Of a stretch of 64,000 nt of DNA, positions 22,186-37,325 are shown piece by piece. A program made the translations under genes and the position numbers. The notes below the pieces were generated by a model. It searched no databases, was not told where the DNA came from, and saw only the letters and a list, made by a program, of their open reading frames with translations. The DNA lies in assembly GCF_024171925.1 (NCBI RefSeq), contig NZ_JAMTCO010000005.1, positions 124,001 to 188,000 on the forward strand, in the 5' to 3' direction. This DNA is from Actinokineospora diospyrosa (GTDB taxonomy: Bacteria > Actinomycetota > Actinomycetes > Mycobacteriales > Pseudonocardiaceae). Position 1 is the stretch's first letter, and every line of letters begins with the position of its first letter.

Positions 22186-22257
22186 CATCCGACCTCGGCC
22201 AACTGGCCCGGCTTGGCTTGCGCGCGTAACGCAACCGTGGATCCGGAGCAACCCCAG

Positions 22258-23280
22258 ATGACCCAGTTGATGAGCGCGCCCGACCCGGTGGTCGCCGGGC
22301 CGCCGGACGCGCCGCGCAGGCGGGTGTCGCCCTCCGGCGGCATGGACCGGGTGTTCCGCGCGGTGCTGCGCGGCGCGGGGCTCACCGTGCTCGCGCTGAT
22401 GGTGACCGTCGGCGTCTTCCTGCTCATCCGCGGCCTCAGCGCCTTCTCGGTCGCCGGGTTCGGCTTCTTCACCACCGAGACCTGGCAGCCCGACTCGAAG
22501 AACTTCGGCATCGCCGCGGTGCTCGTCGGCACGCTGCTGATCGCCTCGGTCGCCCTGGTGGTGGCCTTCCCGCTGGCGCTGGGCATGGCGCTCTACATCT
22601 CCGAGTACGCGCCGCGGCGGATCAAGCGCGCGCTCACCAGCATGATCGACCTGATGGCCGCGGTGCCCAGCGTGGTCTACGGCCTGTTCGGCTCGACCCT
22701 GCTGCAGTGGCAGGGCACCGACATCCCGCGCTGGCTGTCCATCCAGTTCGGCTGGATCCCGTTCCTCTCGGTGCCCGAGGCCGACCCGGACAACCCGCTC
22801 TCGCCCAACGGCGTCTACATGACCTCGACCTTCTGGGCTGGCCTGGTGGTCGGGTTCATGATCATGCCGTTCATCTGCTCGGTGATGCGCGAGTCGTTCA
22901 CCCAGGCGCCGCAGGGCGAGCGGGAGGGCGCCTACGCGCTCGGCTCGACCCGCTGGGGCATGATCCGCAGCGTCGTGCTGCCCTTCGGCCGCTCCGGCAT
23001 GATCGGCGGCACCATGCTCGGCCTCGGCCGCGCGCTCGGCGAGACGATCGCCGTGGCCATGATCATCTCGCCGGTGTTCGTCATCCAGCCGCACATCCTG
23101 GGCTCCGGCGCCAACTCGGTGTCCGCGCTCATCGCCCAGCAGTGGGGCTCGGCGAGCCCGTTCGGCCTCGGCGCGCTGATGGCCGCGGGCCTGGCCCTCT
23201 TCACGCTCACCCTCGTGGTCAACTTCGCCGCCTCCGCGGTGATCGCCCGCAGTCGATCCGGCCAGGGGAGTGACGCCTGA
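22258..23280 (+). CDS. pstC: Phosphate ABC transporter permease
   Basis: A 340-residue inner-membrane permease with six predicted membrane helices and the PstC pattern: ALYISEYAPRR after helix 2, LMAAVPSVVYGLFG, and the EAA coupling loop GAYALGSTRWGMIRSVVLPFGRSG (split near residues 220-245) followed by LGRALGETIAVAMI. It pairs with PstA to move phosphate through the membrane. The ATG at 22258 follows GGAG; the upstream frame to 22213 is ignored. The pstA start overlaps its stop. It opens the 15-kb cluster that ends with pstB. Confidence 0.93.
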   Translation: MTQLMSAPDPVVAGPPDAPRRRVSPSGGMDRVFRAVLRGAGLTVLALMVTVGVFLLIRGLSAFSVAGFGFFTTETWQPDSKNFGIAAVLVGTLLIASVALVVAFPLALGMALYISEYAPRRIKRALTSMIDLMAAVPSVVYGLFGSTLLQWQGTDIPRWLSIQFGWIPFLSVPEADPDNPLSPNGVYMTSTFWAGLVVGFMIMPFICSVMRESFTQAPQGEREGAYALGSTRWGMIRSVVLPFGRSGMIGGTMLGLGRALGETIAVAMIISPVFVIQPHILGSGANSVSALIAQQWGSASPFGLGALMAAGLALFTLTLVVNFAASAVIARSRSGQGSDA

Positions 23281-24620
23281 TGTCCACAGTGGAACCAACC
23301 GTGGCCCGGCCGGTGCCGGAGCTCGCCGAGACCACCCAGCAGATCCCGCAGCCGACCGAGCGGCTGGCCCAACCGCAGCCGCACCGGTTGCCGCTGCCGG
23401 TCCCCGGTCGGCACCGCGCCGCGCCCGCGCCCGAGGTGCGCCGCGACACCCGCTCGATCCGCCGCGCCGACATCGTCGCGCTGCTCGGCGCGCTCGTCGC
23501 CGCGGCCGCGCTCACCGGGGTGCTCTTCGACCAGATCGCCCCGTTCTCCGGCGTGGTCGGTTTCATCGCGATCGCCTACCCGCTGTTCCTCGCCATCTAC
23601 GCGCTGCTGGTGTCGCTGGAGGAGAACGCGCTGACCGTGCGCGACAAGCTGGTCTCCGCGCTGGTGCACAGCGTCGCGGTGCTGGCCGTCGGCGCGCTCA
23701 TCGTGATCATCTCCTACCCGGTGGTCGAGGGCTGGCCCGCGCTGGCGCACCTCAACTTCTTCACCGAGGACATGGCCGACGCGGGCACCCTGGACCCGCT
23801 GGAGTTCGGCGGGATCCTGCACGCCATCGTCGGCACGCTCGAGCAGATCAGCATCGCGCTGGTCATCACCGTCCCGCTCGGCCTGGCCACCGCGGTGTTC
23901 CTCAACGAGACCAGGGGCGCGTTCACCCGCCTGGTGCGCACCGTCGTCGAGGCGATGACCGCGCTGCCCTCGATCGTCGCGGGCCTGTTCATCTACGCCT
24001 CGCTGATCCTGCTGCTGGGCTTCCAGCGCTCCGGGTTCGCCGCTGGCGCCGCGATCAGCATCATGATGCTGCCGATCATGATCCGGGCCGCGGACGTGGT
24101 GCTGCGGTTGGTACCCAGCTCGCTGCGCGAGGCGTCGCTGGCGCTGGGCGCCGGGCAGCTGCGCACCGTGTGGCACGTGGTGCTGCCGACCGCGCGCTCC
24201 GGCCTGACCACCAGCGTCCTGCTGGCCACCGCGCGCGGCGTCGGCGAGACCTCGCCGGTGCTCATCGCCGCGGGCTTCACCCCGTACCTCAACGCCAACC
24301 CGTTCGTCGACGCGCAGGTCTCGCTGCCGCTGGCCACCTACCAGATGGTGGCCTCCTCGGAGGAGACCATGCAGACCCGCGCGTTCGGCGCCGCTTCGGT
24401 GCTGATCCTTCTGGTGCTGATCCTGTTCGTCCTCGCTCGGGTGCTCGGCGGGCGGGAGGCGGGCGCCCTGTCGGCGGGCCAACAACGCCGCAGGGCCAAG
24501 GCATCCGCTCGCGACCGCGAGCGCTTCATCGCCGCGACGGGCCACTCTGCCTCACCCCCGCCCGCCCAGCCCCTGGCAGGCCCACCCCTGACCGATCCGC
24601 AGCAAGGAGTCCAGCTATGA
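23280..24620 (+). CDS. pstA: Phosphate ABC transporter permease with long N-terminal extension
   Basis: A 446-residue PstA-type permease. The first ~60 residues form a Pro/Gln/Arg-rich cytoplasmic extension not usual in PstA (commonly about 280-300 residues). Two extra hydrophobic segments (about 70-115) precede the conserved permease core, which includes LGLATAVFLNET, ALPSIVAGLFIY and the EAA loop REASLALGAGQLRTVWHVVLP. It overlaps pstC by one base and pstS by four (ATGA). The C-terminal ~45 residues are charged and Pro-rich. Confidence 0.92.
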   Translation: MSTVEPTVARPVPELAETTQQIPQPTERLAQPQPHRLPLPVPGRHRAAPAPEVRRDTRSIRRADIVALLGALVAAAALTGVLFDQIAPFSGVVGFIAIAYPLFLAIYALLVSLEENALTVRDKLVSALVHSVAVLAVGALIVIISYPVVEGWPALAHLNFFTEDMADAGTLDPLEFGGILHAIVGTLEQISIALVITVPLGLATAVFLNETRGAFTRLVRTVVEAMTALPSIVAGLFIYASLILLLGFQRSGFAAGAAISIMMLPIMIRAADVVLRLVPSSLREASLALGAGQLRTVWHVVLPTARSGLTTSVLLATARGVGETSPVLIAAGFTPYLNANPFVDAQVSLPLATYQMVASSEETMQTRAFGAASVLILLVLILFVLARVLGGREAGALSAGQQRRRAKASARDRERFIAATGHSASPPPAQPLAGPPLTDPQQGVQL

Positions 24621-26185
24621 CCCCCCAGGGACGCGCGCGCGGGGTTGGCCTGCTGGCCACCCTCGTCGTGCTCGCCACCGCCGCGGTCGGGTTCGCCCCG
24701 ACCGCCTCCGCCCAGGGCTACGTGCCGATCAGCGGATCGGGGTCGACCTGGAGCTTCAACGCGCTCGACCAGTGGCGCAAGAACGTCCAGCAGTTCGGCA
24801 TCCGGATCAACTTCTCCGGTACGGGCTCCACCGACGGCCGCAACCAGTTCAAGGCCGGTCAGGTCGACTTCGCGGTGTCGGAGATCCCCTACGGCCTCAC
24901 CGACGCCGGGGTCCGCGACATCCCGCCGCCGGACGGCAAGTTCGCCTACATGCCGATCGTCGCCGGTGGCACGTCGCTGATGTACAACCTCAACATCGCG
25001 GGCAAGCGGGTGACCAACCTGCGGCTCTCCGGCGACACCGTCACCAAGATCTTCACCCGCAAGATCACCATGTGGAACGACGCGGCGATCGCGGCGGACA
25101 ACCCGGCGCTGACCCTGCCCGCCCGCCAGATCGTGCCGGTGGTGCGCAGCGACGGCTCCGGCTCGACCGCGCAGTTCACCAGCTACCTCGCCGACCAGCA
25201 CGGCGCGGACTGGGACGACTTCTGCCACAAGGCGGGCCGCGTGCAGACCCCGTGCGGGTTCACCTCGAACTTCCCGTCCTACCAGGGGATCGTCGGCCAG
25301 GTCGGCTCGATCGGCGTGGCGAACTACGTGCGGCAGGCGCAGAGCGACGGCGCCATCACCTACGTCGAGTACTCCTACGCCAAGAACGCCGGGTTCCCGG
25401 TCGCCAAGCTGCTCAACAAGAGCGGCTTCTACATCGCCCCGACCGCCCAGGCCGTCGCCGTCGGGCTGCTCAAGGCCGAGATCGACCCGAACGACCTGAC
25501 CCAGAAGCTGCAGGGCGTCTACAACTCGACCGACGACCGCACCTACCCGATGTCCAGCTACAGCTACATGATCCTGCCGACGGCGATCAAGGGCACCTTC
25601 AACGAGCTCAAGGGCAAGACGCTCTCGGACTTCTCGTACTACTTCCTGTGCGAGGGCCAGCAGCAGGCCGAGCGGCTCGGGTTCTCCCCGCTGCCGATCA
25701 ACCTGGTGCAGGCCGGGCTCAAGCAGGTGGAGCGGATCCCCGGCTCGACCAAGAAGCCCACCGACATCTCCAAGTGCAACAACCCGACCTTCTCCACCAA
25801 CGGCACCAACACCCTCGCCCAGACCGCGCCGCACCCGCAGGAGTGCGACAAGAAGGGCTCGACGGTCCAGTGCGACGCCAGCGGCAAGGCCGTCACCAAG
25901 AAGGGCGCCGTCAAGACCACCGCGGCGGCCAAGCCCGGTGAGACCGCGCCCGGCGCCGCGGAGACCCCCGGGACCGATCCGGGAGCCGCCACCGAGGGCG
26001 AGGGCGCCGCGACGGGGGACACCGCCGCGGAGGAGAGCACCGAGGGCGGCCTGTCCGCCGTCCCGGTCTCGGTCGACCTGCCCCAGGACGACGGCACGCT
26101 GCTGGTCGTCGTCGCCGCGGTGCTCATGGTCGTGCTCGTCGCGGGTCCGCCGCTGGTGGCCCGGCTGATGCGGGGCAAGGGGTGA
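24617..26185 (+). CDS. pstS: Membrane-anchored phosphate-binding protein
   Basis: A 522-residue periplasmic-binding-type protein. Signal peptide about 1-33 (AxA before QGYVP). Phosphate-contacting motifs of PstS are intact: SGSGSTWSF at the N-terminus, FSGTGSTDGRNQF, and RSDGSGSTAQF. After the binding domain (to about 400) comes a Ser/Thr/Ala/Glu linker (about 430-485), then a C-terminal membrane helix (LLVVVAAVLMVVLVAGPPLVA) and a short RGKG tail. It is thus anchored by a C-terminal helix rather than by a lipobox. It overlaps both neighbours by four bases. Confidence 0.92.
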   Translation: MTPQGRARGVGLLATLVVLATAAVGFAPTASAQGYVPISGSGSTWSFNALDQWRKNVQQFGIRINFSGTGSTDGRNQFKAGQVDFAVSEIPYGLTDAGVRDIPPPDGKFAYMPIVAGGTSLMYNLNIAGKRVTNLRLSGDTVTKIFTRKITMWNDAAIAADNPALTLPARQIVPVVRSDGSGSTAQFTSYLADQHGADWDDFCHKAGRVQTPCGFTSNFPSYQGIVGQVGSIGVANYVRQAQSDGAITYVEYSYAKNAGFPVAKLLNKSGFYIAPTAQAVAVGLLKAEIDPNDLTQKLQGVYNSTDDRTYPMSSYSYMILPTAIKGTFNELKGKTLSDFSYYFLCEGQQQAERLGFSPLPINLVQAGLKQVERIPGSTKKPTDISKCNNPTFSTNGTNTLAQTAPHPQECDKKGSTVQCDASGKAVTKKGAVKTTAAAKPGETAPGAAETPGTDPGAATEGEGAATGDTAAEESTEGGLSAVPVSVDLPQDDGTLLVVVAAVLMVVLVAGPPLVARLMRGKG

Positions 26186-28665
26186 ACATGGCCATCAACG
26201 ACCGGCTACCGCGCCTGCTGCTCGTGGTGCTGATGCTGGCCACCGGCGGGGTGCTGCTGGTGCCGAGCCCGGCCGCCGCCCAGGCGCCAGCGGGCTCCGC
26301 GGTGACCGTGCGCGGCGCGGGCGAGTTCGCCACCACGGAGTTCACCATCTCCCAGACCCGGGGGCTGATCAACCAGACCGTCCACCTGAGCTGGGCGGGC
26401 GCCGCCCCGACCGACACCGGTCGCGGTTACAACTACCTGCAGATCATGCAGTGCTGGGGCGACGACGAGGCCGGGCCGCAGCGCGAGCAGTGCCAGTACG
26501 GCACACCGCTGCAGGGCTCCTACAACTCCGACGCGCTGTGGTCGCGCTCGCTGCCGGTGAAGCCGCCCAAGCTGCCCAACGGGCAAGACCCGCAGCCCGA
26601 CGGCAGGCTCATCGACCCGCTCGAGACCACGCCGCAGCAGACCGCGAAGCCCGGTGCGGCCACCTACCTGCCGTTCGTCCCGGTGCCCGCCTCCGGTCCG
26701 CCGACCACGTCGAGCGAACCGGGCTACGGCCTGTACTTCGACGCCAGCACCACCAACGAGGTGCAGGTCGGCGTCACCCGCGAGGACGGCAAGGGCGAGC
26801 TCGACTTCGAGATCCAGACCACCCTCGAGGCGCCCGGTCTCGACTGCGGCCGGGTCCGCACCAGCGGCGCCGACGCGGGCAAGGCGCGGCACTGCTGGCT
26901 GGTCGTGGTGCCGCGCGGCACCAAGGAGGTCAACGGCAAGAGCGTCACCGTGCCGACCGACCAGGGCGGGCACATCCACGGCTACCTCGACTCGTCCCCG
27001 CTGAGCCAGTCCAACTGGGACAAGCGGTTGCCGCCGATCCGGCTCGACTTCGAGCCGGTCGGCGACTCGTGCCCGCTGGGCAAGGCCGAGCGCGCGCTCA
27101 GCGGCAACGAGTTCGTCGTCGACGCGGTGCTGCGCTGGCAACCGGCGCTGTGCGCCAACAACGGCCCGGTGTTCGGCTTCGTCCAGGTGCCCGACCGGCA
27201 GGCCCGCGACCTGCTCGGCGGCGAGGACCCGGGCATGGTCTTCCTGGCCAAGCCGGCGGCCAAGGGATCGATGATCGACGACCGGGCGCTGGTGTACGCG
27301 CCGGTGTCGGTCTCGGCCTACACCGTGGCGTTCATCATGGAGCGCCAGCCGAGGATCGACGCGCCGGACAGCGTCAAGGTCAAGGACGGCCAGCCGATCG
27401 AGGAGCTCAAGCTCACCCCGCGGTTGGTGGCCAAGCTGCTCACCCAGTCCTACTCGGGCGCGGTCCCCGGGCTGCAGGACTACCTCAAGGACAACCCGAC
27501 CCGGTTGAGCCAGGACGAGGAGTTCCTCCAGCTCAACCCGGAGTTCCGCGACCACGCCTCGCTGAGCATGCTCACCGTGGACGCGCTTGCGTCCTCTGTG
27601 GACATGGACGCCACCGAGTCGCTGTGGGAGTGGATCAACTCCGACGCCGAGGCGAAGGCCTGGCTCGGCGGCAGCCCCGACCAGTACGGGATGAAGGTCA
27701 ACAAGAACTTCGTCGGGTTGCCCATGCCCGCGCAGAACTTCCCCAAGGCCGACCTGACCTGCGTCCCGCAGAAGATCCTGAACATGATCGCCGACATGTG
27801 CGCTGGCACCAGGCGCCCGCTGGCGGCCGACCTGCACGAGGCGGGCCGCGCGGTCAACCGCGGCGACAGCCTCGGCCGCGAACCCAACGGCCAGCGCGAC
27901 CCGCTCGACCAGACCAAGCCCGCCTTCTCCCGGGTCGGCCGCTCGGTGGTCGGCAAGCGCGCCATGCTCGCGGTCGTCGACACCGCGACCGCCAAGCGCT
28001 ACGGCCTGTCCGTGGCGAAGCTGCGCAACGCGGCCGGGCAGTTCGTCGCCCCGACCGACGAGGCGGTCCTCGCCGGTGTCGCCGAGATGACCGCGACCGA
28101 CACCCCCGGGGTGAAGGCCACCAACCCCAAGGCGGTCGCGGCCAACGCCTACCCGCTGCCCGCGGTGAGCTACGCGGCGACCGCGCCGTCCATGCTGACC
28201 CGCGACTCGGGCAAGGACTACGCAGGCCTGCTGCGCTACGTCACCTCCGCGGGCCAGGTCCCCGGTGAGGGCGTCGGCAAGCTCCCGGCCGGGTACATCC
28301 CGCTGCCGCAGCCGATGCGCGAGCAGGCCGAGGCGAGCGCGAAGGTGATCGAGCGCGACGCGGGCATCAAGCCGCCCGTCGCGCCGGAACCGGCCGAGGA
28401 GCAGGAGACCGGCGCCGAGGACGAGACCCCGGCCGCCGATCCCGACCCGGCCCCCGCGCCGCAGCCCGCCCCGGCGCCCGCGCCCGCTGCCCCCGAGACC
28501 CCGGCGGCGCGCAGCACCCCGGTCGCGCAGAGCAAGACGACGCAGGCGACCCCGGTCGCCTGGGTGCTGCGGTACCTGATGGCCGGACTGCTCGTCGCCG
28601 GTGGCCTGGCCACCGCCGCGGGCCCCGTGCTGACCCGGCTCGGGGCGCGGGCGAGGATTCGATGA
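26182..28665 (+). CDS. Large membrane-anchored, divergent substrate-binding-like protein
   Basis: An 827-residue exported protein: signal peptide about 1-34, a long beta-rich N-terminal part with several Cys (CWGD, CQYG, LDCGR, RHCWL, DSCPLG, ALCANN), then a region (about 370-620) whose LTPRLVAKLLTQSYSG, LNPEFR and VSVSAYTVAF segments recall PstS-like type II binding domains. The PstS phosphate loops are absent. A Pro/Ala/Glu linker (about 725-785) leads to a C-terminal membrane helix and Arg-rich tail. The GTG overlaps the pstS stop; ATG at 26188 is the alternative. It likely binds another ligand or partner. Confidence 0.82.
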   Translation: MNMAINDRLPRLLLVVLMLATGGVLLVPSPAAAQAPAGSAVTVRGAGEFATTEFTISQTRGLINQTVHLSWAGAAPTDTGRGYNYLQIMQCWGDDEAGPQREQCQYGTPLQGSYNSDALWSRSLPVKPPKLPNGQDPQPDGRLIDPLETTPQQTAKPGAATYLPFVPVPASGPPTTSSEPGYGLYFDASTTNEVQVGVTREDGKGELDFEIQTTLEAPGLDCGRVRTSGADAGKARHCWLVVVPRGTKEVNGKSVTVPTDQGGHIHGYLDSSPLSQSNWDKRLPPIRLDFEPVGDSCPLGKAERALSGNEFVVDAVLRWQPALCANNGPVFGFVQVPDRQARDLLGGEDPGMVFLAKPAAKGSMIDDRALVYAPVSVSAYTVAFIMERQPRIDAPDSVKVKDGQPIEELKLTPRLVAKLLTQSYSGAVPGLQDYLKDNPTRLSQDEEFLQLNPEFRDHASLSMLTVDALASSVDMDATESLWEWINSDAEAKAWLGGSPDQYGMKVNKNFVGLPMPAQNFPKADLTCVPQKILNMIADMCAGTRRPLAADLHEAGRAVNRGDSLGREPNGQRDPLDQTKPAFSRVGRSVVGKRAMLAVVDTATAKRYGLSVAKLRNAAGQFVAPTDEAVLAGVAEMTATDTPGVKATNPKAVAANAYPLPAVSYAATAPSMLTRDSGKDYAGLLRYVTSAGQVPGEGVGKLPAGYIPLPQPMREQAEASAKVIERDAGIKPPVAPEPAEEQETGAEDETPAADPDPAPAPQPAPAPAPAAPETPAARSTPVAQSKTTQATPVAWVLRYLMAGLLVAGGLATAAGPVLTRLGARARIR

Positions 28666-29316: not shown

Positions 29317-29430
29317 GCCACAGACCGGACGGACAGATGCGTGGCCCGGTGGTCACGGCGTGGACCAGCCCACCGGGGGCGTGCTCGGACAACCAGTCCG
29401 CGCACCACTGCGAAGAAAAGGATACAGGTA

Positions 29431-30408
29431 GTGAGCAAGAAGCAGCGTTTGATCGTTGTGGCCTCCGCCGCGCTCGCCCTGGCGGGCGTGTTCGCGGGCA
29501 CGGCCCAGGCGGACCCGACCGGTGCGCCGACCTACCGCGAGCTGGCCGGTACCGGCTCCGACACCACCCAGACGGTGTTGAACGGCCTCTCCGAGGCCAT
29601 CACCATCAACGGCACCAAGGTGCTGGGCTCGTACGACGCGCGTGGTTCCGCCCAGATCACCACCAAGGACGCCAACCCCGCCTGCACCATCAACCGGCCG
29701 GAGAACTCCGCTGGTGGCGTCACCGCGCTGAAGGCCAGCGTGGCCGCCAACAACGGTTGCCTCCAGTTCGCCCGCTCCTCGTCGAACTCGGCGGCGGCGA
29801 ACACGGACCTCAAGTTCATCCCGTTCGCGATCGACGCGCTGACCTACGCGGTCCGCAGCGACAGCGCGGTGCCGAAGAAGCTCACCAAGGCCCAGTTGAC
29901 CGCGATCTACACCTGCGCCAACACCGCGTTCAAGCCGCTGGCCCCGCAGTTCGGCTCCGGCACCCGCTCGTTCTTCGTCCGGTCGATCATGCCCGCGGGC
30001 ACCGTCGACTCGGCGAACCTGTTCGGCCCGACCGGCCAGTACGCCTGCGTCAACGACAAGGACGCGGCCAACGAGCCGATCCAGGAGCACGTCGGCACCT
30101 ACCTGACCGACACCCGCCACCTGCTGCCCTACTCGATCGCGGTCTACAACTCGCAGGTCTACGGCAACGCCCCCGCGGCACAGGGCAAGGCTGTTCTCGG
30201 CACCGTCGACAACATCCAGCCGACCAACCTGAACACCTCCTCGGTGTTCAAGCGCGACGTCTACAACGTGATCCCGGCCGACAAGCTCGAGGTCGCCCCG
30301 TTCAGCACCGTGTTCGTCGGCGCCAACTCGGCCGTCTGCCAGCGCGGCGACGTCATCACCCGCTACGGCTTCGGCATCGCGCCCAACTGCGGCGTCCCGG
30401 TCCAGTAG
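29431..30408 (+). CDS. Secreted PstS-like substrate-binding protein lacking phosphate loops
   Basis: A 325-residue exported protein with a clear signal peptide (res. 1-27, GTAQA cleavage) and a type II binding-protein layout: YRELAGTGSDTTQTVLNGL at the start, FARSSSN, LKFIPFAIDALTYAV (hinge-like) and LTKAQLTAIYTC. It keeps the overall PstS order but has SFFVRSIMPAG where PstS has RSDGSGT, so phosphate is not obviously its ligand. There is no lipobox or C-terminal helix; it is probably free or held by neighbours. The GTG at 29431 follows AAAAGGA. Confidence 0.83.
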   Translation: MSKKQRLIVVASAALALAGVFAGTAQADPTGAPTYRELAGTGSDTTQTVLNGLSEAITINGTKVLGSYDARGSAQITTKDANPACTINRPENSAGGVTALKASVAANNGCLQFARSSSNSAAANTDLKFIPFAIDALTYAVRSDSAVPKKLTKAQLTAIYTCANTAFKPLAPQFGSGTRSFFVRSIMPAGTVDSANLFGPTGQYACVNDKDAANEPIQEHVGTYLTDTRHLLPYSIAVYNSQVYGNAPAAQGKAVLGTVDNIQPTNLNTSSVFKRDVYNVIPADKLEVAPFSTVFVGANSAVCQRGDVITRYGFGIAPNCGVPVQ

Positions 30409-30465: not shown

Positions 30466-32040
30466 GTGCGCACAAACGTCTTCACCCGCAGGCTGGTCGG
30501 CGGGGCCATCGCCTTCGCGGCCGCCACCGCTGCCACCCTCGGCGCGGCGGGCATCGCCGCCGCCGCGGCGCCCCCCGGGAACCTGGGTTCGCTGAGCATC
30601 AACAAGACCTCCGGTCTTGACACCGACGCCCCCACCTTCACCACCTCCGCGGGCTGCACCCCGGACTCCGACGGCTACAGCCTGTTCGTCTACGGGCCGG
30701 GTGCGTGGGACGCGGGCTTCACCGCGACCCCCGTCACCGACGTCGGCTTCTCGCAGAGCGGCGGCTTCCCGATCGTGCAGGGCCTGTCCTTCAAGGACAT
30801 CGCGGTGGACAACGCCACCACGATCGTCCCGGGCAAGTACACCGTCGCGGCCTACTGCGTCGACCAGTTCGCCGCCGAGAACAAGGGCGCGTTCACCCGC
30901 GACATCTGGTTCACCTCCGCCACCGCGTGGCGCGACAGCGACCCGGCCGTGCAGAACCCCAGCACCACCGCGCTCTCGGTCACCCCGGCCGCCCCGGTCG
31001 TCTCGGGCACCAACGTGACCCTGACCGCCAACGTCACCCCGGCCACCGCCGTGGGCTCCGTCCAGTTCAAGGACGGCGCCAACAACCTCGGTGCCCCGGT
31101 GACCGTGGTCAACGGTGTCGCGACCCTCTCCACCACCGCGCTGCCCACCGGCGCGCGTTCGCTGACCGCCTCCTTCTCGGGCGCCGGCTACGTCACCTCC
31201 ACCTCGTCGGCCGTGTCGTACCAGGTCAACGCGCCTGCCGCCGCCCCGACCACGACCGCCCTCGCGGTCACCCCGAGCGGTACCGCCGCCGCGTACTCGC
31301 CCGTCACCCTCTCCGCCACCGTGAACCCGGGTGCGGCCGCTGGTGCGGTGCAGTTCTTCGACGGTGCCAACGCCCTGGGCAACCCGGTCGCCGTGTCCGC
31401 CGGTTCGGCCACGCTGACCACCTCCACCCTCGCGGTGGGCGCGCACAACTTCACCGCGCGCTTCGTCCCGAGCAACGCCGCCGCCTACGAGCCCTCGGTC
31501 TCGGTCGGCGTCGCCCTCGAGGTCACCCCGTTCGCCGGTGTGACCGCGTCGCAGAACATCACCACCACCGTGCTCGCCGGTGAGCTGCTGATCAGCGTCG
31601 CCAACCAGAACGTGGTCCTGCCCTCCCCGGTCATGGCCGCCGACGGTTCGCTGCTGACCACCGCTGGCTCGCTCAACCCGATCAAGGTCACCGACACCCG
31701 CGCGGGTAACCCGGGCTGGAACGTCTCGGGTCAGGTGTCCGACTTCATCAACGGCGCCAACGCCATCAACGGCGCGAACCTGGGCTGGACCCCGAAGCTC
31801 GTCGACAAGTCCGCCCCCCAGGTCATCACCGTCGGTGCGCAGGTCAACCCGGCCAACGCCATCGCCCCGGGTGCCTCGGCCCCCAACGGCCTCGGCCTGG
31901 CCGCCGCCCGCGTCCTCGCCACCGCCGCCGCCCTCGGCGGCAACGGCACCGCGAACCTGTCGGCCGACCTGGCCCTCAACGTCCCCACCTCCACCGTGGC
32001 GGGCACCTACTCGGCGCTGCTGACCCTCACCGCCATCTGA
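30466..32040 (+). CDS. Secreted Ig-like repeat protein with WxL-like C-terminal domain
   Basis: A 524-residue exported protein. Signal peptide about 1-36. Residues about 38-155 are an extracellular domain that recurs in the genes at 33150 and 33928 (SLSINKTSGLDTDAPTF, DGYSLFVYGPG, LSFKDIAVDNATTI). Two bacterial Ig-like repeats follow (about 163-252 and 255-348). The last ~170 residues, with GWNVSGQVSDF, LGWTPKLVD and AGTYSALLTLTAI, resemble WxL cell-wall-binding domains of Firmicutes. No membrane anchor is present, so wall attachment through this domain is inferred. GTG start after GGAAGG. Confidence 0.8.
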   Translation: MRTNVFTRRLVGGAIAFAAATAATLGAAGIAAAAAPPGNLGSLSINKTSGLDTDAPTFTTSAGCTPDSDGYSLFVYGPGAWDAGFTATPVTDVGFSQSGGFPIVQGLSFKDIAVDNATTIVPGKYTVAAYCVDQFAAENKGAFTRDIWFTSATAWRDSDPAVQNPSTTALSVTPAAPVVSGTNVTLTANVTPATAVGSVQFKDGANNLGAPVTVVNGVATLSTTALPTGARSLTASFSGAGYVTSTSSAVSYQVNAPAAAPTTTALAVTPSGTAAAYSPVTLSATVNPGAAAGAVQFFDGANALGNPVAVSAGSATLTTSTLAVGAHNFTARFVPSNAAAYEPSVSVGVALEVTPFAGVTASQNITTTVLAGELLISVANQNVVLPSPVMAADGSLLTTAGSLNPIKVTDTRAGNPGWNVSGQVSDFINGANAINGANLGWTPKLVDKSAPQVITVGAQVNPANAIAPGASAPNGLGLAAARVLATAAALGGNGTANLSADLALNVPTSTVAGTYSALLTLTAI

Positions 32041-32115: not shown

Positions 32116-32143
32116 ACCTCGACCTTCTACTAAGGACTTGACC

Positions 32144-33160
32144 ATGAAGCGGATCTGGCGCCACGCCGCGCTTTCCGGTCTGCTCGCGCTGCTGGCCACC
32201 GGGCTGACCGGCCTGGCGCCCGCGCAGGCCGCTGCGGCCGCTCCCGCCACCTTCGGCGTGCGCCCGGCCACCGCCCAGGCGCCGGACAACCGCCCGAACT
32301 TCAGCTACAGCGCGACACCCGGCGCGGTCGTGGTCGACTACGTCGCGGTGTCGAACGTGTCCAACGACCCGCTGTCGCTCAAGCTCTACCCGAACGACGC
32401 CTTCAACACCCCCGACGGCGGGTTCGACCTGCTGGCCTCCAACGCCAAGTCGGTCGACGTCGGCGCCTGGGTCACCGTGGACTCCGGCCAGGTCGAGGTC
32501 CCCGGCCGCACCACCAAGATCGTGCCGTTCCGGCTGAGCATCCCGCCGAACGCGACCCCCGGCGACCACGTCGGCGGCATCGTGGCCGCCCTGGTCACCG
32601 AGGCCACCAACGCCGAGGGGCAGCGCGTCGCCGTCGAGCAGCGCGTGGGTGCCCGGGTGTACCTGCGCATCTCCGGTGACCTCGTGCCGAAGCTGAGCAT
32701 CGAGGACCTGACCGCCGACTACGAGCACTCGCTGTTCGGCTCGGGCGACACCGTCGTCGAGTACACCGTGCGCAACTCCGGCAACGTCCGCCTCGGCGGC
32801 AAGCAGACGGTCACCGTCGAGACCCCCTGGGGCTCCGGGACCTCCGCGCCGAACCTGGCCGACCTGCCCGAACTGCTGCCGGGCAACACCTTCCGCGTGC
32901 GCACCACCGTCCCCGGCGTGCTGCCCGCGGGCTGGCTCGACGCGCTCGTGCACATCGACCCGGTCGCCCCACCCGGCCCGCAGCCGCAGGCGCCAGCCGT
33001 CGACGCGAGCGTCACCGCCATCGCGGTCCCGTGGCTGTTGCTGATCATCGTGCTCCTGGTCGTCGCGCTGGTGCTGTTCCTGTTGTGGCGCAGGCGAAAG
33101 CGCCGCGCCCGGCCCGCGGTCGCGCCGGATCCGTTGCCGGAGGTGGAACATGCGGTCTAG
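32144..33160 (+). CDS. DUF916-like membrane-anchored surface protein
   Basis: A 338-residue protein with a signal peptide (about 1-30), an extracytoplasmic beta-sandwich region and a C-terminal membrane helix (about 290-315) followed by a basic tail. The order FSYSATPGAVVVDYVAVSNVSNDPLSL, then a PG-RTTKIVPFRLSIPPNATPGDHVGGIVA segment (both interrupted), matches DUF916, the partner of WxL proteins in Gram-positives. Its position next to the WxL-like protein supports that. The ATG at 32144 follows AAGGA. The next gene overlaps its end by 11 bases. Confidence 0.8.
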   Translation: MKRIWRHAALSGLLALLATGLTGLAPAQAAAAAPATFGVRPATAQAPDNRPNFSYSATPGAVVVDYVAVSNVSNDPLSLKLYPNDAFNTPDGGFDLLASNAKSVDVGAWVTVDSGQVEVPGRTTKIVPFRLSIPPNATPGDHVGGIVAALVTEATNAEGQRVAVEQRVGARVYLRISGDLVPKLSIEDLTADYEHSLFGSGDTVVEYTVRNSGNVRLGGKQTVTVETPWGSGTSAPNLADLPELLPGNTFRVRTTVPGVLPAGWLDALVHIDPVAPPGPQPQAPAVDASVTAIAVPWLLLIIVLLVVALVLFLLWRRRKRRARPAVAPDPLPEVEHAV

Positions 33161-33884
33161 TCGCTACCTGCTCGCCGCGGTCGTCGCGGTCCTGCTCGGG
33201 CTGTCCTTACCCGCGACCGCGTCGGCGGACCGGATCGGCGGCCTGCTGGTCACCCCCGGCGAGAGCGTCGACGAGGTCCCGGTGCGGCTCAACACCGAGA
33301 AGGGCTGCCCGCAGGGCGCCACCGGCTACATCGCGACCATGAAGGGCCACGGCCTGGACAACGTCGTCGTGGTGCCGACCTCGGACGTGCTGATGTCGCA
33401 CGACAAGGGGTTCATGGTCCCGGTCGCCAACACCTTCCGCGACTACGCCAAGGACAACAACACCACGCTGCAGGGCCGCTACGAGATCACGCTCAGCTGC
33501 GTCGACGCGTTCTCCCAGCAGAACTTCGGCGACTTCACCGCCTCGATCGACATCCCGGCCGCCGGTCGCTACGCGGCGGTCGGCCCGGCCAAGGGCCCGG
33601 CGCGCAACACCGACCCGATCGTCCCGCCCGAGTTGGGGCTCGACGGCGGGCAGCAGGACACCGCGCCCGCGCCGCAGCAGCAACCCGGGCAGCAGCAGCC
33701 CGCCGACGTCGCGCAGCCGGGCACCGCGCCGGTCGACGCCGCCGAGCCCGACCACTCCGGCTCGAGCTCCAAGACCTTCCTCTACCTGGGTGGTGGCGTG
33801 GCGGTGCTGGTCGTGGCCGCGGCCATCGGCGCCCGGATCCGCAGGCGGGGCAGTGAGACCACCACCGAGTCCGAAACCGAGTGA
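33150..33884 (+). CDS. Membrane-anchored single-domain surface protein
   Basis: A 244-residue exported protein: signal peptide 1-26 (ASA), one copy of the repeated extracellular domain (about 30-145: GLLVTPG, GCPQGATGYIATMKGHG, FRDYAKDNNTTLQGRYEITLSCVDAF), a Gln/Pro/Ala linker (about 160-205) and a C-terminal membrane helix followed by RIRRRGSE. It overlaps the DUF916-like gene. The signal peptide region contains one TTA codon. Confidence 0.78.
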   Translation: MRSSRYLLAAVVAVLLGLSLPATASADRIGGLLVTPGESVDEVPVRLNTEKGCPQGATGYIATMKGHGLDNVVVVPTSDVLMSHDKGFMVPVANTFRDYAKDNNTTLQGRYEITLSCVDAFSQQNFGDFTASIDIPAAGRYAAVGPAKGPARNTDPIVPPELGLDGGQQDTAPAPQQQPGQQQPADVAQPGTAPVDAAEPDHSGSSSKTFLYLGGGVAVLVVAAAIGARIRRRGSETTTESETE

Positions 33885-33927: not shown

Positions 33928-35508
33928 ATGCGTAAGCGCCAACTGATCGCGGCAGGCGCGGCGGTCCTCACCACGGTCACGGCGGGCATCCTGCTCGCCG
34001 CCACCACCAGCCAGGCGGAACCGCCGACGGCCACCTTAGGGACGCTGACCGTCAGCAAGCAGTCCGGCCTGGACACCGACGCGCCGACCTGGACCACCGA
34101 GGGGCCGTGCACCGCGGACTCCGACGGCTACACGCTGTGGGTCTACGGCCCGGGCGGGTTCGCCAAGGGCCTGGTCGGCGCCCCGATCTCGGACGTGGGC
34201 TTCTCCACCACGGACCCGATCAGCGTCACCCAGGGCCTGACCTTCAAGGACATCGCGGTGGAGAACAGCACCACGATCCAGGCGGGCGAGTTCACCGCGG
34301 TCGTGTTCTGCCGCGACGGCTTCGGTGGCGTCGACACCGGCACGTTCACCAAGAAGTTCTACTTCGTGGACCCGACGCACTGGCAGGTGCGCAACCCGGC
34401 GGACCCCACCACCACGTCGTCGACCACCACGACGACCACGACCGCGCCGACCACCACCACGACCACCACCACGGTGTCGCCGACGACCACGACCACGACG
34501 GTCGAGCCGACGACGACCACCACGACGGTCGAGCCCACCACCACGACGACCACGGTCGAGCCCACGACGACGACCACCACTGTCGCCCCGACCACGACGA
34601 CGACGACGGTCGAGCCCACCACCACGACCACGACGGTCCAGCCGACGACCACCACGACGACGGTCCAGCCGACGACGACCACCACCACGGTGGCCCCGAC
34701 GACGACCACGACCACGACGACGATCAAGCCGACCACGACGACCACCACGGTCCAGCCGACGACCACCACCACGTCGGTCCAGCCGACGACGACCACCACG
34801 ACCTCGGGTGGGGCCACCACCACGACCCCGTCCGGCCCGCCCCGGCTCGGCGCGCTGACCCCCAGCAAGACCAGCGGTGGCGCCAACGAGACCCCGCCGA
34901 CCTACTTCACCGACGGCCCCTGCCCGAAGTTGACCAAGGAATACCTGATCAACGTCAAGGGCCCGGGTGACTGGCTCAAGGGCTTCGCGGGCGCGGTCGC
35001 GACCGAGAGCGACGTGTCCCTCAGCGACCCCTTCACCGGCACGCAGACCTGGGGCTTCGCCGACATCGCCAAGGACAACAGCGTCACGATCAAGCCGGGC
35101 ACCTACACCGTCGAACTGCGCTGCGTCGACGCCTTCGGCCAGCTCGACCTGGGCTACTTCGACCTCAAGCTGGAGTTCTTCAACGACACCGCGGGCGCGG
35201 TGCGCTGGAAGGTCGCGCAGGGGACCGGCACGACGACCACCACCCCGGCGTCCACCACGACCCAGCCCGGTGGCGGCACGACCACCACCGCGGGCGGCAC
35301 CGTCGACCCGACGACCACCACCGTCGCGCCCGCGCCGCAGGGCAGTTCCGGGACCGGCTCCGGCGGTGGCCTCGCCAGCACCGGTGCCTCCGTGGGGCTC
35401 GCACTGCTCGCCGGTACCGCGCTGATCGGCTTCGGTGGCCTCGCGCTCGTCGCGACCCGCCGCCGCCGCGCCGCGGGCACGCCGACCGAGTGGCCGACCC
35501 AGAGCTGA
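33928..35508 (+). CDS. Thr-stalk surface protein with LASTG sorting signal
   Basis: A 526-residue exported protein. Signal peptide about 1-32; first extracellular domain (about 38-155); a low-complexity stalk of ten or so TTTTTTVEP/TVQP units (about 158-300); a second copy of the domain (about 308-430); a Thr/Gly linker; then LASTG at 482-486, a membrane helix and RRRR tail. LAxTG is the recognition motif of class E sortases. The stalk is probably O-glycosylated. The ATG at 33928 follows GGAGG. One TTA codon near the signal peptide. It lies directly before a sortase-fold gene that lacks catalytic residues. Confidence 0.85.
   Translation: MRKRQLIAAGAAVLTTVTAGILLAATTSQAEPPTATLGTLTVSKQSGLDTDAPTWTTEGPCTADSDGYTLWVYGPGGFAKGLVGAPISDVGFSTTDPISVTQGLTFKDIAVENSTTIQAGEFTAVVFCRDGFGGVDTGTFTKKFYFVDPTHWQVRNPADPTTTSSTTTTTTTAPTTTTTTTTVSPTTTTTTVEPTTTTTTVEPTTTTTTVEPTTTTTTVAPTTTTTTVEPTTTTTTVQPTTTTTTVQPTTTTTTVAPTTTTTTTTIKPTTTTTTVQPTTTTTSVQPTTTTTTSGGATTTTPSGPPRLGALTPSKTSGGANETPPTYFTDGPCPKLTKEYLINVKGPGDWLKGFAGAVATESDVSLSDPFTGTQTWGFADIAKDNSVTIKPGTYTVELRCVDAFGQLDLGYFDLKLEFFNDTAGAVRWKVAQGTGTTTTTPASTTTQPGGGTTTTAGGTVDPTTTTVAPAPQGSSGTGSGGGLASTGASVGLALLAGTALIGFGGLALVATRRRRAAGTPTEWPTQS
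34410..34830 (+). repeat. Threonine-coding low-complexity tandem repeat
   Basis: ACC/ACG runs interrupted by GTC-GAG/CAG-CC(G/C) give about ten 27-base units. The frame stays open throughout, so it is a true coding repeat; unit number may vary between strains and be hard to assemble. Confidence 0.8.
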
Positions 35509-35579: not shown

Positions 35580-36491
35580 GTGACCGTGCTCGACAAACCC
35601 CAACCGGCCCCGGCCCCACCGGGCGTCCCGGAGCCGCGGTACCGGCCGGAACGGCCCGCGCTGCTGCTGGCCGGGCAGATGGTCGCCATCCTCGGCGCGG
35701 TGCTGTTGTGCTTCGTCGCCCAACTCGTCTTCCTCGGCGCGCTCAAGCACGAGCGCGACCAGAACTCCGCTTACAACGCCCTGCGCGCCGACCTGGCCAA
35801 GGCGACCGCGCCGGTGTCCGGGCTGACCGAGGACGGCAGGCTGCTCGACAGCGGCACCCCGGTCGCGATCATCGAGATCCCGCGGCTGCGGCTGCAGGAG
35901 GTCGTGCTCGAGGGCACCTCGTCGCGCACCCTGAAGTCCGGGCCGGGGCACGTGCGCAACACGCCGCTGCCCGGGCAGTCCGGCACGAGCACGATCTACG
36001 GCCGCAAGGCCGCTTACGGCGGGCCGTTCGCCCAGATCGACAAGCTGCGCCAGGGCGACGAGATCGTGGTGACCACCGGCCAGGGCGAGCACCGCTACAT
36101 GGTGCAGGGCGTGCGCAGGGTCAACGACAAGGAGCGGGTCGCCCCCGCAGGCGAGGGGCGGCTGACGCTGGCCACCGCCGACGGGTCCTACTTCCTGCCC
36201 ACCGACGTCATCCGGGTCGACGCCCGGCTGGTCTCGGAGGTGCAGGCCAAGACCAGGCAGCTGCCCGCGTTCGCGGTGCCCGACAACGAGCGCGCCATGG
36301 CGGGCGACCGCTCCGCGCTGGTGCCGATCGCGCTGTGGACGCTGATCCTGGCCGCCGCCGGGGTCGGCGCGGTGTACGTGCGCCAACGGGTCGGCCGCTG
36401 GCAGGCCTGGGTGATCGGGGTGCCGGTCGTCGGCGCCGTCGCGCTCACCCTCGCCGACCACTCCGCCGCCCTGCTGCCCAACCTGATGTGA
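35580..36491 (+). CDS. Sortase-fold membrane protein with substituted catalytic His and Cys (pseudosortase)
   Basis: A 303-residue protein with an N-terminal membrane helix (about 28-52), a class E-like sortase domain (about 93-220) and two C-terminal membrane helices (about 245-300). Landmarks of the fold are all there: VAIIEIPRL, GPGHVRNTPLPGQSGTSTI, PFAQIDKLRQGDEI, LTLATADGSYF and IRVDARLV. Where active enzymes have GH(R) and TLxTC, it reads GR at 141-142 (CGC at 36003) and TLATA at 196-200 (GCC at 36177). Both nucleophile and general acid are missing, and the frame is intact around them. A binding, not transpeptidase, role is inferred. GTG start after GAGAGGA. Confidence 0.85.
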   Translation: MTVLDKPQPAPAPPGVPEPRYRPERPALLLAGQMVAILGAVLLCFVAQLVFLGALKHERDQNSAYNALRADLAKATAPVSGLTEDGRLLDSGTPVAIIEIPRLRLQEVVLEGTSSRTLKSGPGHVRNTPLPGQSGTSTIYGRKAAYGGPFAQIDKLRQGDEIVVTTGQGEHRYMVQGVRRVNDKERVAPAGEGRLTLATADGSYFLPTDVIRVDARLVSEVQAKTRQLPAFAVPDNERAMAGDRSALVPIALWTLILAAAGVGAVYVRQRVGRWQAWVIGVPVVGAVALTLADHSAALLPNLM

Positions 36492-36506: not shown

Positions 36507-37325
36507 ATGACCAGCGTGATGACCAGCCCCCACCCCGTGCCGGGCGCCGAGCAGGCCAGCATCGACGCGCGCGCGGTCTCCGCCTGGTTCGGTGACCGCA
36601 AGGTCCTCGACCGGGTGTCGCTGCTGATGCCGGGCGGCTCGGTGACCGCGCTGATCGGCCCGTCCGGCTGCGGCAAGTCGACCTTCCTGCGCACCCTCAA
36701 CCGGATGCACGAGCTGATCCCCGGCGCCTCGCTCGCGGGCGAGGTCCTGCTCTCCGGGGTCGACATCTACGACCCGACCCGCAAGCTCACCGACGCCCGC
36801 AAGCAGATCGGGATGGTCTTCCAGAAGCCCAACCCGTTCCCGGCGATGTCCATCTACGACAACGTGATCGCGGGCCTGAAGCTCACCGGGCTCAAGGCGG
36901 GCCGCTCCGAGCGCGACGACCTCGTCGAGCAGTGCCTGACCAAGGCCGGTCTGTGGGTCGAGGTCCGCGACCGGCTCCGCCAGCCCGGCGGCGCGCTCTC
37001 CGGCGGTCAGCAGCAGCGGCTGTGCATCGCCCGCTCGCTCGCGGTGCGGCCCAAGGTGTTGCTGATGGACGAGCCGTGCTCGGCGCTGGACCCGACCTCG
37101 ACCCGGCGCATCGAGCAGACCATCGCCGAGCTCGGCCACGAGGTGACGATCATCATCGTGACGCACAACATGCAGCAGGCGGCCCGGGTCTCGCAGCAGT
37201 GCGCGTTCTTCCTCGCCGAGCAGGGCACCCCCGGGGTGATCGTCGAGGCGGGGCCGACGCAGCAGATCTTCACCGCGCCCAACGACCAGCGCACCGCCGA
37301 CTACGTCAACGGCCGGTTCGGCTGA
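36507..37325 (+). CDS. pstB: Phosphate ABC transporter ATPase
   Basis: A 272-residue ABC ATPase with Walker [10 protein letters not shown], PstB-typical [10 protein letters not shown] and [11 protein letters not shown], signature [10 protein letters not shown], Walker [17 protein letters not shown] and switch His in VTHNM. It energises phosphate import by PstC/PstA. It is intact but lies about 12 kb downstream of pstA, separated by the surface genes, which is unusual since pstSCAB are normally contiguous. It begins 15 bases after the pseudosortase gene. Confidence 0.93.

Follow-up and report, generated by a model that had tools for sequence, protein, structure and literature searches.

What does a protein with a sortase fold do once both of its catalytic residues, the His and the Cys, have been lost? 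This question is raised by a gene of Actinokineospora diospyrosa found in a stretch of 64,000 nucleotides of contig NZ_JAMTCO010000005.1, hereafter called the window. The gene, whose product we refer to as a pseudosortase, lies between a gene for a wall protein and a gene for a PstB-type ATPase, in a run that also encodes permeases, binding proteins and further surface proteins (Table 1).

Table 1. Features of the pseudosortase locus, with positions counted from the first nucleotide of the window.
Feature	Position	Strand	Remarks
PstC permease	22213..23280	+	254.1 bits (curated cut-off 196.45); start codon uncertain
PstA permease	23280..24620	+	216.9 bits (curated cut-off 193.45)
PstS-type binding protein	24617..26185	+	212.8 bits (curated cut-off 205); C-terminal membrane helix
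Long PstS-like protein	26182..28665	+	827 aa; C-terminal membrane helix; PstS profile weakly matched
PBP_like_2 binding protein	29341..30408	+	start codon uncertain
Big_3_5 protein	30466..32040	+	sub-threshold WxL match
WxL-interacting protein peptidoglycan-binding domain (WxLIP_PGBD)	32138..33160	+	above cut-off
244-aa protein	33150..33884	+	hydrophobic stretch and basic residues at the end; no family above cut-off
Threonine-rich wall protein with a C-terminal sorting signal	33928..35508	+	LASTG at 35371-35385
Pseudosortase	35580..36491	+	303 aa; sortase domain at about residues 93-217, preceded by one membrane helix at the N-terminus and followed by two at the C-terminus (all predicted)
Arg142 codon	36003..36005	+	position of the catalytic His
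Shortened beta6/beta7 loop (residues 181-192)	36120..36155	+	12 residues in both structure models; 26 in SrtE1
Ala200 codon	36177..36179	+	position of the catalytic Cys
C-terminal membrane helix pair (residues 244-302)	36309..36485	+	predicted
PstB-type ATPase	36507..37325	+	338.8-339 bits, just under the cut-off of 343.2

By combining a profile search with structure prediction, we found in the window protein both a match to the PF04203 (Sortase) profile and a predicted sortase beta-barrel, which could be aligned structurally to SrtE1 of Streptomyces coelicolor (PDB 5cuw). By prediction, then, a sortase fold is framed by one membrane helix at the N-terminus and two at the C-terminus, in keeping with the initial annotation of this locus, which had reported intact fold landmarks and two extra helices at the C-terminus. 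The two residues P300 and N301 form a PN motif near the C-terminus that is invariant in 193/193 rows. All 26 members of A1 matched the class E profile of NCBIfam (E 1e-5 or better). The window protein itself scores 86.4 bits, below the cut-off of 160. Compared with the class E enzymes SrtE1 and SrtE of S. avermitilis (5go5), it is devoid of the His, the Cys and the class E Tyr, its beta6/beta7 loop is much shorter, and the C-terminal helix pair is an addition. Against the class D profile it scores 46.6 bits, with a cut-off of 165; the class D sortase of Clostridium perfringens (4d70) is an active enzyme.

The same annotation had noted the replacement of His by Arg and of Cys by Ala in the window protein. 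Both changes could be confirmed, and the loss of the two residues extends to the homologues. First, among 121 rows, that is the window protein and 120 listed homologues out of 434 found, the His position is held by Arg (120) or Lys (1), and the Cys position by Ala (70), Thr (46) or Ser (5), never by Cys. Second, an alignment of the window with 91 loci, in which the window gene is present three times (window, L004 and L086) and near-copies from the same organisms are included, has Arg at the His position in 92 rows out of 92, and Ala (81), Thr (5), Gly (4) or Ser (2) at the Cys position. Third, the Cys position of 193 close homologues is Ala in 136, Thr in 46, Ser in 7 and Gly in 4. For the active sortases, the Cys column was taken from the TLTTC motif rather than from the locus or profile-profile alignments, because the former slipped by one residue at this column or ended early and the latter stopped before it. 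A shifted alignment that would restore a catalytic Cys is ruled out, as 204 of the 205 dead rows have an ectodomain without any Cys. A local mutation or sequencing error is ruled out as well, since the same loss is seen in all the homologues read; none of them has a His or a Cys at the respective position. Thus, the loss of the catalytic His and Cys is a family trait, fixed in the homologues read.

A maximum-likelihood tree separates the dead rows (37) from the active sortases (18) by a single branch with a support of 100/99. The active sortases of this tree are only those that the dead-family profile could reach, L003 and L005 of the same genome being left out; row L137 is only 34% filled and L112 and L113 form long branches. 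Matches were obtained in 229 of 298 genomes; the weaker ones that we inspected (L106, L107 and L111) are active sortases, and among the matches listed, 38 in 34 genomes have an E value below 1e-36 (hand count). Genome contigs provided 80 loci (80 of 431 relatives found in genome contigs), which come from Actinokineospora, Saccharothrix, Amycolatopsis, Actinoplanes, Micromonospora, Streptomyces, Jiangella, Microbacterium and others. We also compared nine distant rows, one of which, the second ORF of L110, appears to be a chance reading frame. In the distant dead branch made of L102, L103, L104 and L105, His is replaced by Arg and Cys by Ser or Thr. These proteins constitute a conserved family of sortase pseudoenzymes, labelled as sortases wherever the sources listed for the homologues provide a name, and sortase counts in these genomes may include proteins incapable of cysteine transpeptidation. 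Our search of the open-access literature found no paper describing the family.

Among the neighbours of the pseudosortase, the steadiest partner is the PstB of a Pst-type locus, that is an importer gene and not a sorting substrate. In the 76 of 80 loci that could be scored (four are too short downstream), a PstB gene on the same strand follows at no more than 1.5 kb in 73, and in 71 the distance does not exceed 400 bp; only L016, L020 and L044 are devoid of it. The initial annotation was right to report a Pst transporter next to the window gene. The other importer components recur upstream. By examining the 66 loci with 9.5 kb of upstream sequence, we found a PstS-like protein in 62, the long PstS-like protein in 65 and the PBP in 65. 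The count was 49 for PstA and 31 for PstC; in many cases the flank stops close to these two genes. An active-type sortase gene, searched by motif, was nearby in only one of the 66. Two of the binding proteins typically carry a hydrophobic C-terminal helix: it was seen in 71 of 74 rows for the PstS partner and in 64 of 68 for the long PstS-like protein, as opposed to 2 of 76 for the PBP. The distant dead branch keeps comparable company, with L102, L103 and L105 beside PstC, PstA and PstB, and L104 without a Pst match within about 9 kb. In the first three, the dead sortase gene is on the opposite strand from the PstC-PstA-PstB-PstS run. The divergent loci L108, L109, L110, L112 and L113 have PstC, PstA and PstB too.

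Co-occurrence was measured by querying genomes with the 355-residue PBP of the window. Of 14 genomes of the genus, 8 contain this protein together with a pseudosortase-type match, and the other 6 contain neither; for five of the 8 (G299-G302 and G304), the presence of the pseudosortase was judged only from a sortase match that stops, like that of the window protein, at profile position 106-108. Among ten genomes outside the genus with a pseudosortase-type match, the PBP was clear in three (G118, G282 and G009), weak in one (G069) and not found in six, indicating that it is not an obligate part of the system.

The importer resembles PstSCAB in that PstC, PstA and PstS of the window pass the curated cut-offs, with PstB just short. 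It differs in that the PstB gene is detached from the others and comes after that of the pseudosortase, and in that two binding proteins have a C-terminal membrane helix. Moreover, the same genome encodes a separate canonical pstSCAB, with PstS, PstC, PstA and PstB in this order and no sortase match there. At the position aligned with the ligand-binding Asp of classical PstS, 58 of 65 rows of the partner PstS have Glu and 7 have Asp, so that the ligand of this Pst-type importer may differ from free phosphate, phosphate and related anions being the candidates. Searching for PHO boxes by consensus, we obtained 4 matches in the window for 4.6 expected, and none upstream of pstC in the 12 loci scanned; there is therefore no support for Pho regulation of the locus. 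We also considered a possible link to the Streptomyces gene SCO1906. PMC2267785 lists its product as a Tat-dependent secreted protein in a phosphate-starvation cluster, but nothing here connects it to the locus, and term searches of PMC7866108 and PMC7244524 gave no mention. In the former, a 2021 review on phosphate transport in Streptomyces and related Actinobacteria, a term search likewise gave no sortase, second pst, PstS-like or paralog.

Since the pseudosortase and PstB form the steadiest gene pair, since the pseudosortase has three predicted membrane helices and an invariant PN motif, and since a membrane tether is predicted for its partner receptors, we tentatively propose that it acts not as an enzyme but as a docking or accessory subunit, in the membrane, of a Pst-type importer with membrane-tethered receptors. 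According to this model, the three-helix pseudosortase would sit by the PstC-PstA permease, and its ectodomain would keep the tethered PstS-type receptors, and often a wall-attached protein as well, near the permease. The Arg-rich former active site could grip an acidic surface of a partner or an anionic ligand, and anchoring of the wall protein would fall to an active class E sortase whose gene lies elsewhere. If true, the sortase fold would have been reused as a transport accessory, and many Actinobacteria would possess an overlooked Pst-type system with membrane-tethered receptors.

The wall proteins of the locus offer other possibilities. A protein with an [LM][PAS]xTG motif, a membrane stretch and a basic tail is encoded within 3.5 kb upstream in 50 of the 66 loci, and directly upstream in 43, while the opposite strand has one in a single locus. 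The description of the window gene as a dead sortase beside an LASTG protein was right. The association is real and supports that the wall protein matters; because of its frequency, this protein may be the true partner. In the window, the LASTG protein contains long threonine-rich repeats (TTTTTTVxPT-like units, 34359-34886) ahead of a second domain. Active class E sortases with both His and Cys are encoded in the same genome (L001 and L002), and such sortases are the expected enzymes for the wall-protein substrates.

Given that a conserved neighbourhood can mean co-regulation only, the pseudosortase might instead organise the cell wall or the wall proteins on behalf of the surface proteins of the locus, its adjacency to pstB reflecting nothing more than co-regulation. 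Indeed, the window locus encodes WxL-like, WxLIP and LASTG proteins. WxL/WxLIP surface complexes of Firmicutes are known as csc clusters, and the window resembles them by having a WxLIP domain and a weak WxL match in one gene run with a sorting-signal protein. In contrast to these clusters, the genes of the window share their locus with a dead sortase and with an importer of the Pst type, and neither the WxL-like nor the WxLIP gene was found in every relative. Moreover, by using the window proteins as tblastn queries, we observed that the WxL-like and WxLIP genes were not found or were elsewhere in many loci, whereas PstB stays adjacent, and three of the four distant-branch loci retain PstCAB. 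These observations make the organiser role unlikely, albeit conceivable.

What has become of the former active site bears on the other explanations. Arg is found at R126 and R179 in 193 of 193 close homologues and at R142 in 192; it is less constant at R125 (153/193), R143 (123/193) and R180 (132/193). Given that R143 is common to active sortases (GHR), the sites counted as new are R125, R126, R142, R179 and R180. As judged by analogy with the published SrtE1 description (PMC5148588), these five arginines would bracket the former peptide groove. In the distant branch, L102, L104 and L105 lack R126 and R179. The groove might thus have been rebuilt as an Arg-lined anion site, the pseudosortase being a new kind of receptor or relay subunit of the importer that passes an anionic ligand between wall-bound and membrane-tethered binding proteins and the permease; the candidates would be phosphate or a related oxyanion, or else a phosphorylated polymer of the wall. 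We regard this more specific reading as rather unlikely.

The catalytic Arg of sortases, on strand beta8, gave a less uniform picture. In SrtE1, C320 and R329 are nine residues apart (PMC5148588), and this spacing puts the catalytic Arg of the window protein at residue 209, which is Asp in 142, Gly in 46, Asn in 3, Ser in 1 and Gln in 1 of 193 rows. The structural alignment to 5cuw ends at residue 222 of the model, matching residue 341 of the chain, which puts the Arg near residue 210 as estimated from the range ends only; residues 203-207 were modelled with low confidence. Three residues past 209, R212 is Arg in 172/193 rows. Hence, the catalytic Arg is probably lost, or it may survive as R212. 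A salt bridge between R142 and D209, as a swap of charges, was dropped because residue 209 is Gly in 46/193 rows and because the two models disagree on the beta7/beta8 turn.

The initial annotation had suggested that the protein binds sorting signals or acts as a scaffold. Only the second half of this proposal fits well with our data. If the dead groove bound the LASTG-type signal of its neighbour without cutting it, in order to pass it to an active sortase or to retain it in the membrane, the upstream position of sorting-signal genes and the sortase fold itself would be readily explained. According to PMC5148588, SrtE1 accommodates the leucine of the signal in a pocket held by its 26-residue beta6/beta7 loop, and Tyr229 of its GHY motif, in the beta3/beta4 loop, contacts the alanine of LAxTG. 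We therefore measured the distance between beta6 and the Cys motif, and found 16-21 residues in 205 dead rows versus 30-70 in 23 active ones, 25 of the 253 rows, including the distant branch L102-L105, having been left out as they fitted neither pattern. Likewise, the leucine-pocket motif occurs in 0/205 dead rows versus 23/23 active rows (31/33 in a looser count of active rows). The position of the class E Tyr (residue 125) is Arg in 153, Leu in 24, Val in 6, Gln in 4, Lys in 3, Glu in 2 and Ala in 1 of 193 homologues, and never Tyr. Among active rows, Tyr is present in 27 of 33 by the first PGH match and, within A2, in 9 of 10. With the loop cut, the pocket motif absent and the Tyr missing throughout, the data speak against binding of sorting signals in the known manner. 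In addition, the motif scan found no sorting-signal protein in 14 of the 66 loci despite the presence of the dead sortase, and the motifs of the neighbouring wall proteins vary from LA to LP to MA. Altogether, a role as sorting-signal receptor appears quite improbable. A weaker form of this idea is kept because of the 50 loci with a sorting-signal protein close upstream: the pseudosortase may bind another part of the wall protein.

Could the protein have acquired a new, Cys-independent chemistry, based for example on the Arg cluster and the invariant H124? H124, R126, R142 and R179 are each present in at least 192 of the 193 close homologues. However, H124 and its PGH motif also occur in active class E sortases, so this His may be structural, and the mixture of Ala, Thr, Ser and Gly at the Cys position means that no nucleophile is kept there. 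We hold such an enzyme to be very improbable. Finally, a decaying gene or a sequencing artefact, as two changed catalytic residues might suggest, can be practically dismissed, since the same loss is found in 120/120 listed homologues and in loci of many genera, the codon signal of the window gene is intact and its dN/dS against genus relatives is 0.18-0.55, below 1 in six comparisons out of six (two of them with the same gene), these values being rough because third positions are 97% GC.

Some genomes have more than one copy. Two pseudosortase-type matches apiece were present in G132, G192, G001 and G072. Also, a single contig of Streptomyces odonnellii carries two pseudosortase-PstB pairs (L023 and L071) about 13 kb apart with a PstC-PstA-PstS set between them, a layout that looks like a tandem arrangement.
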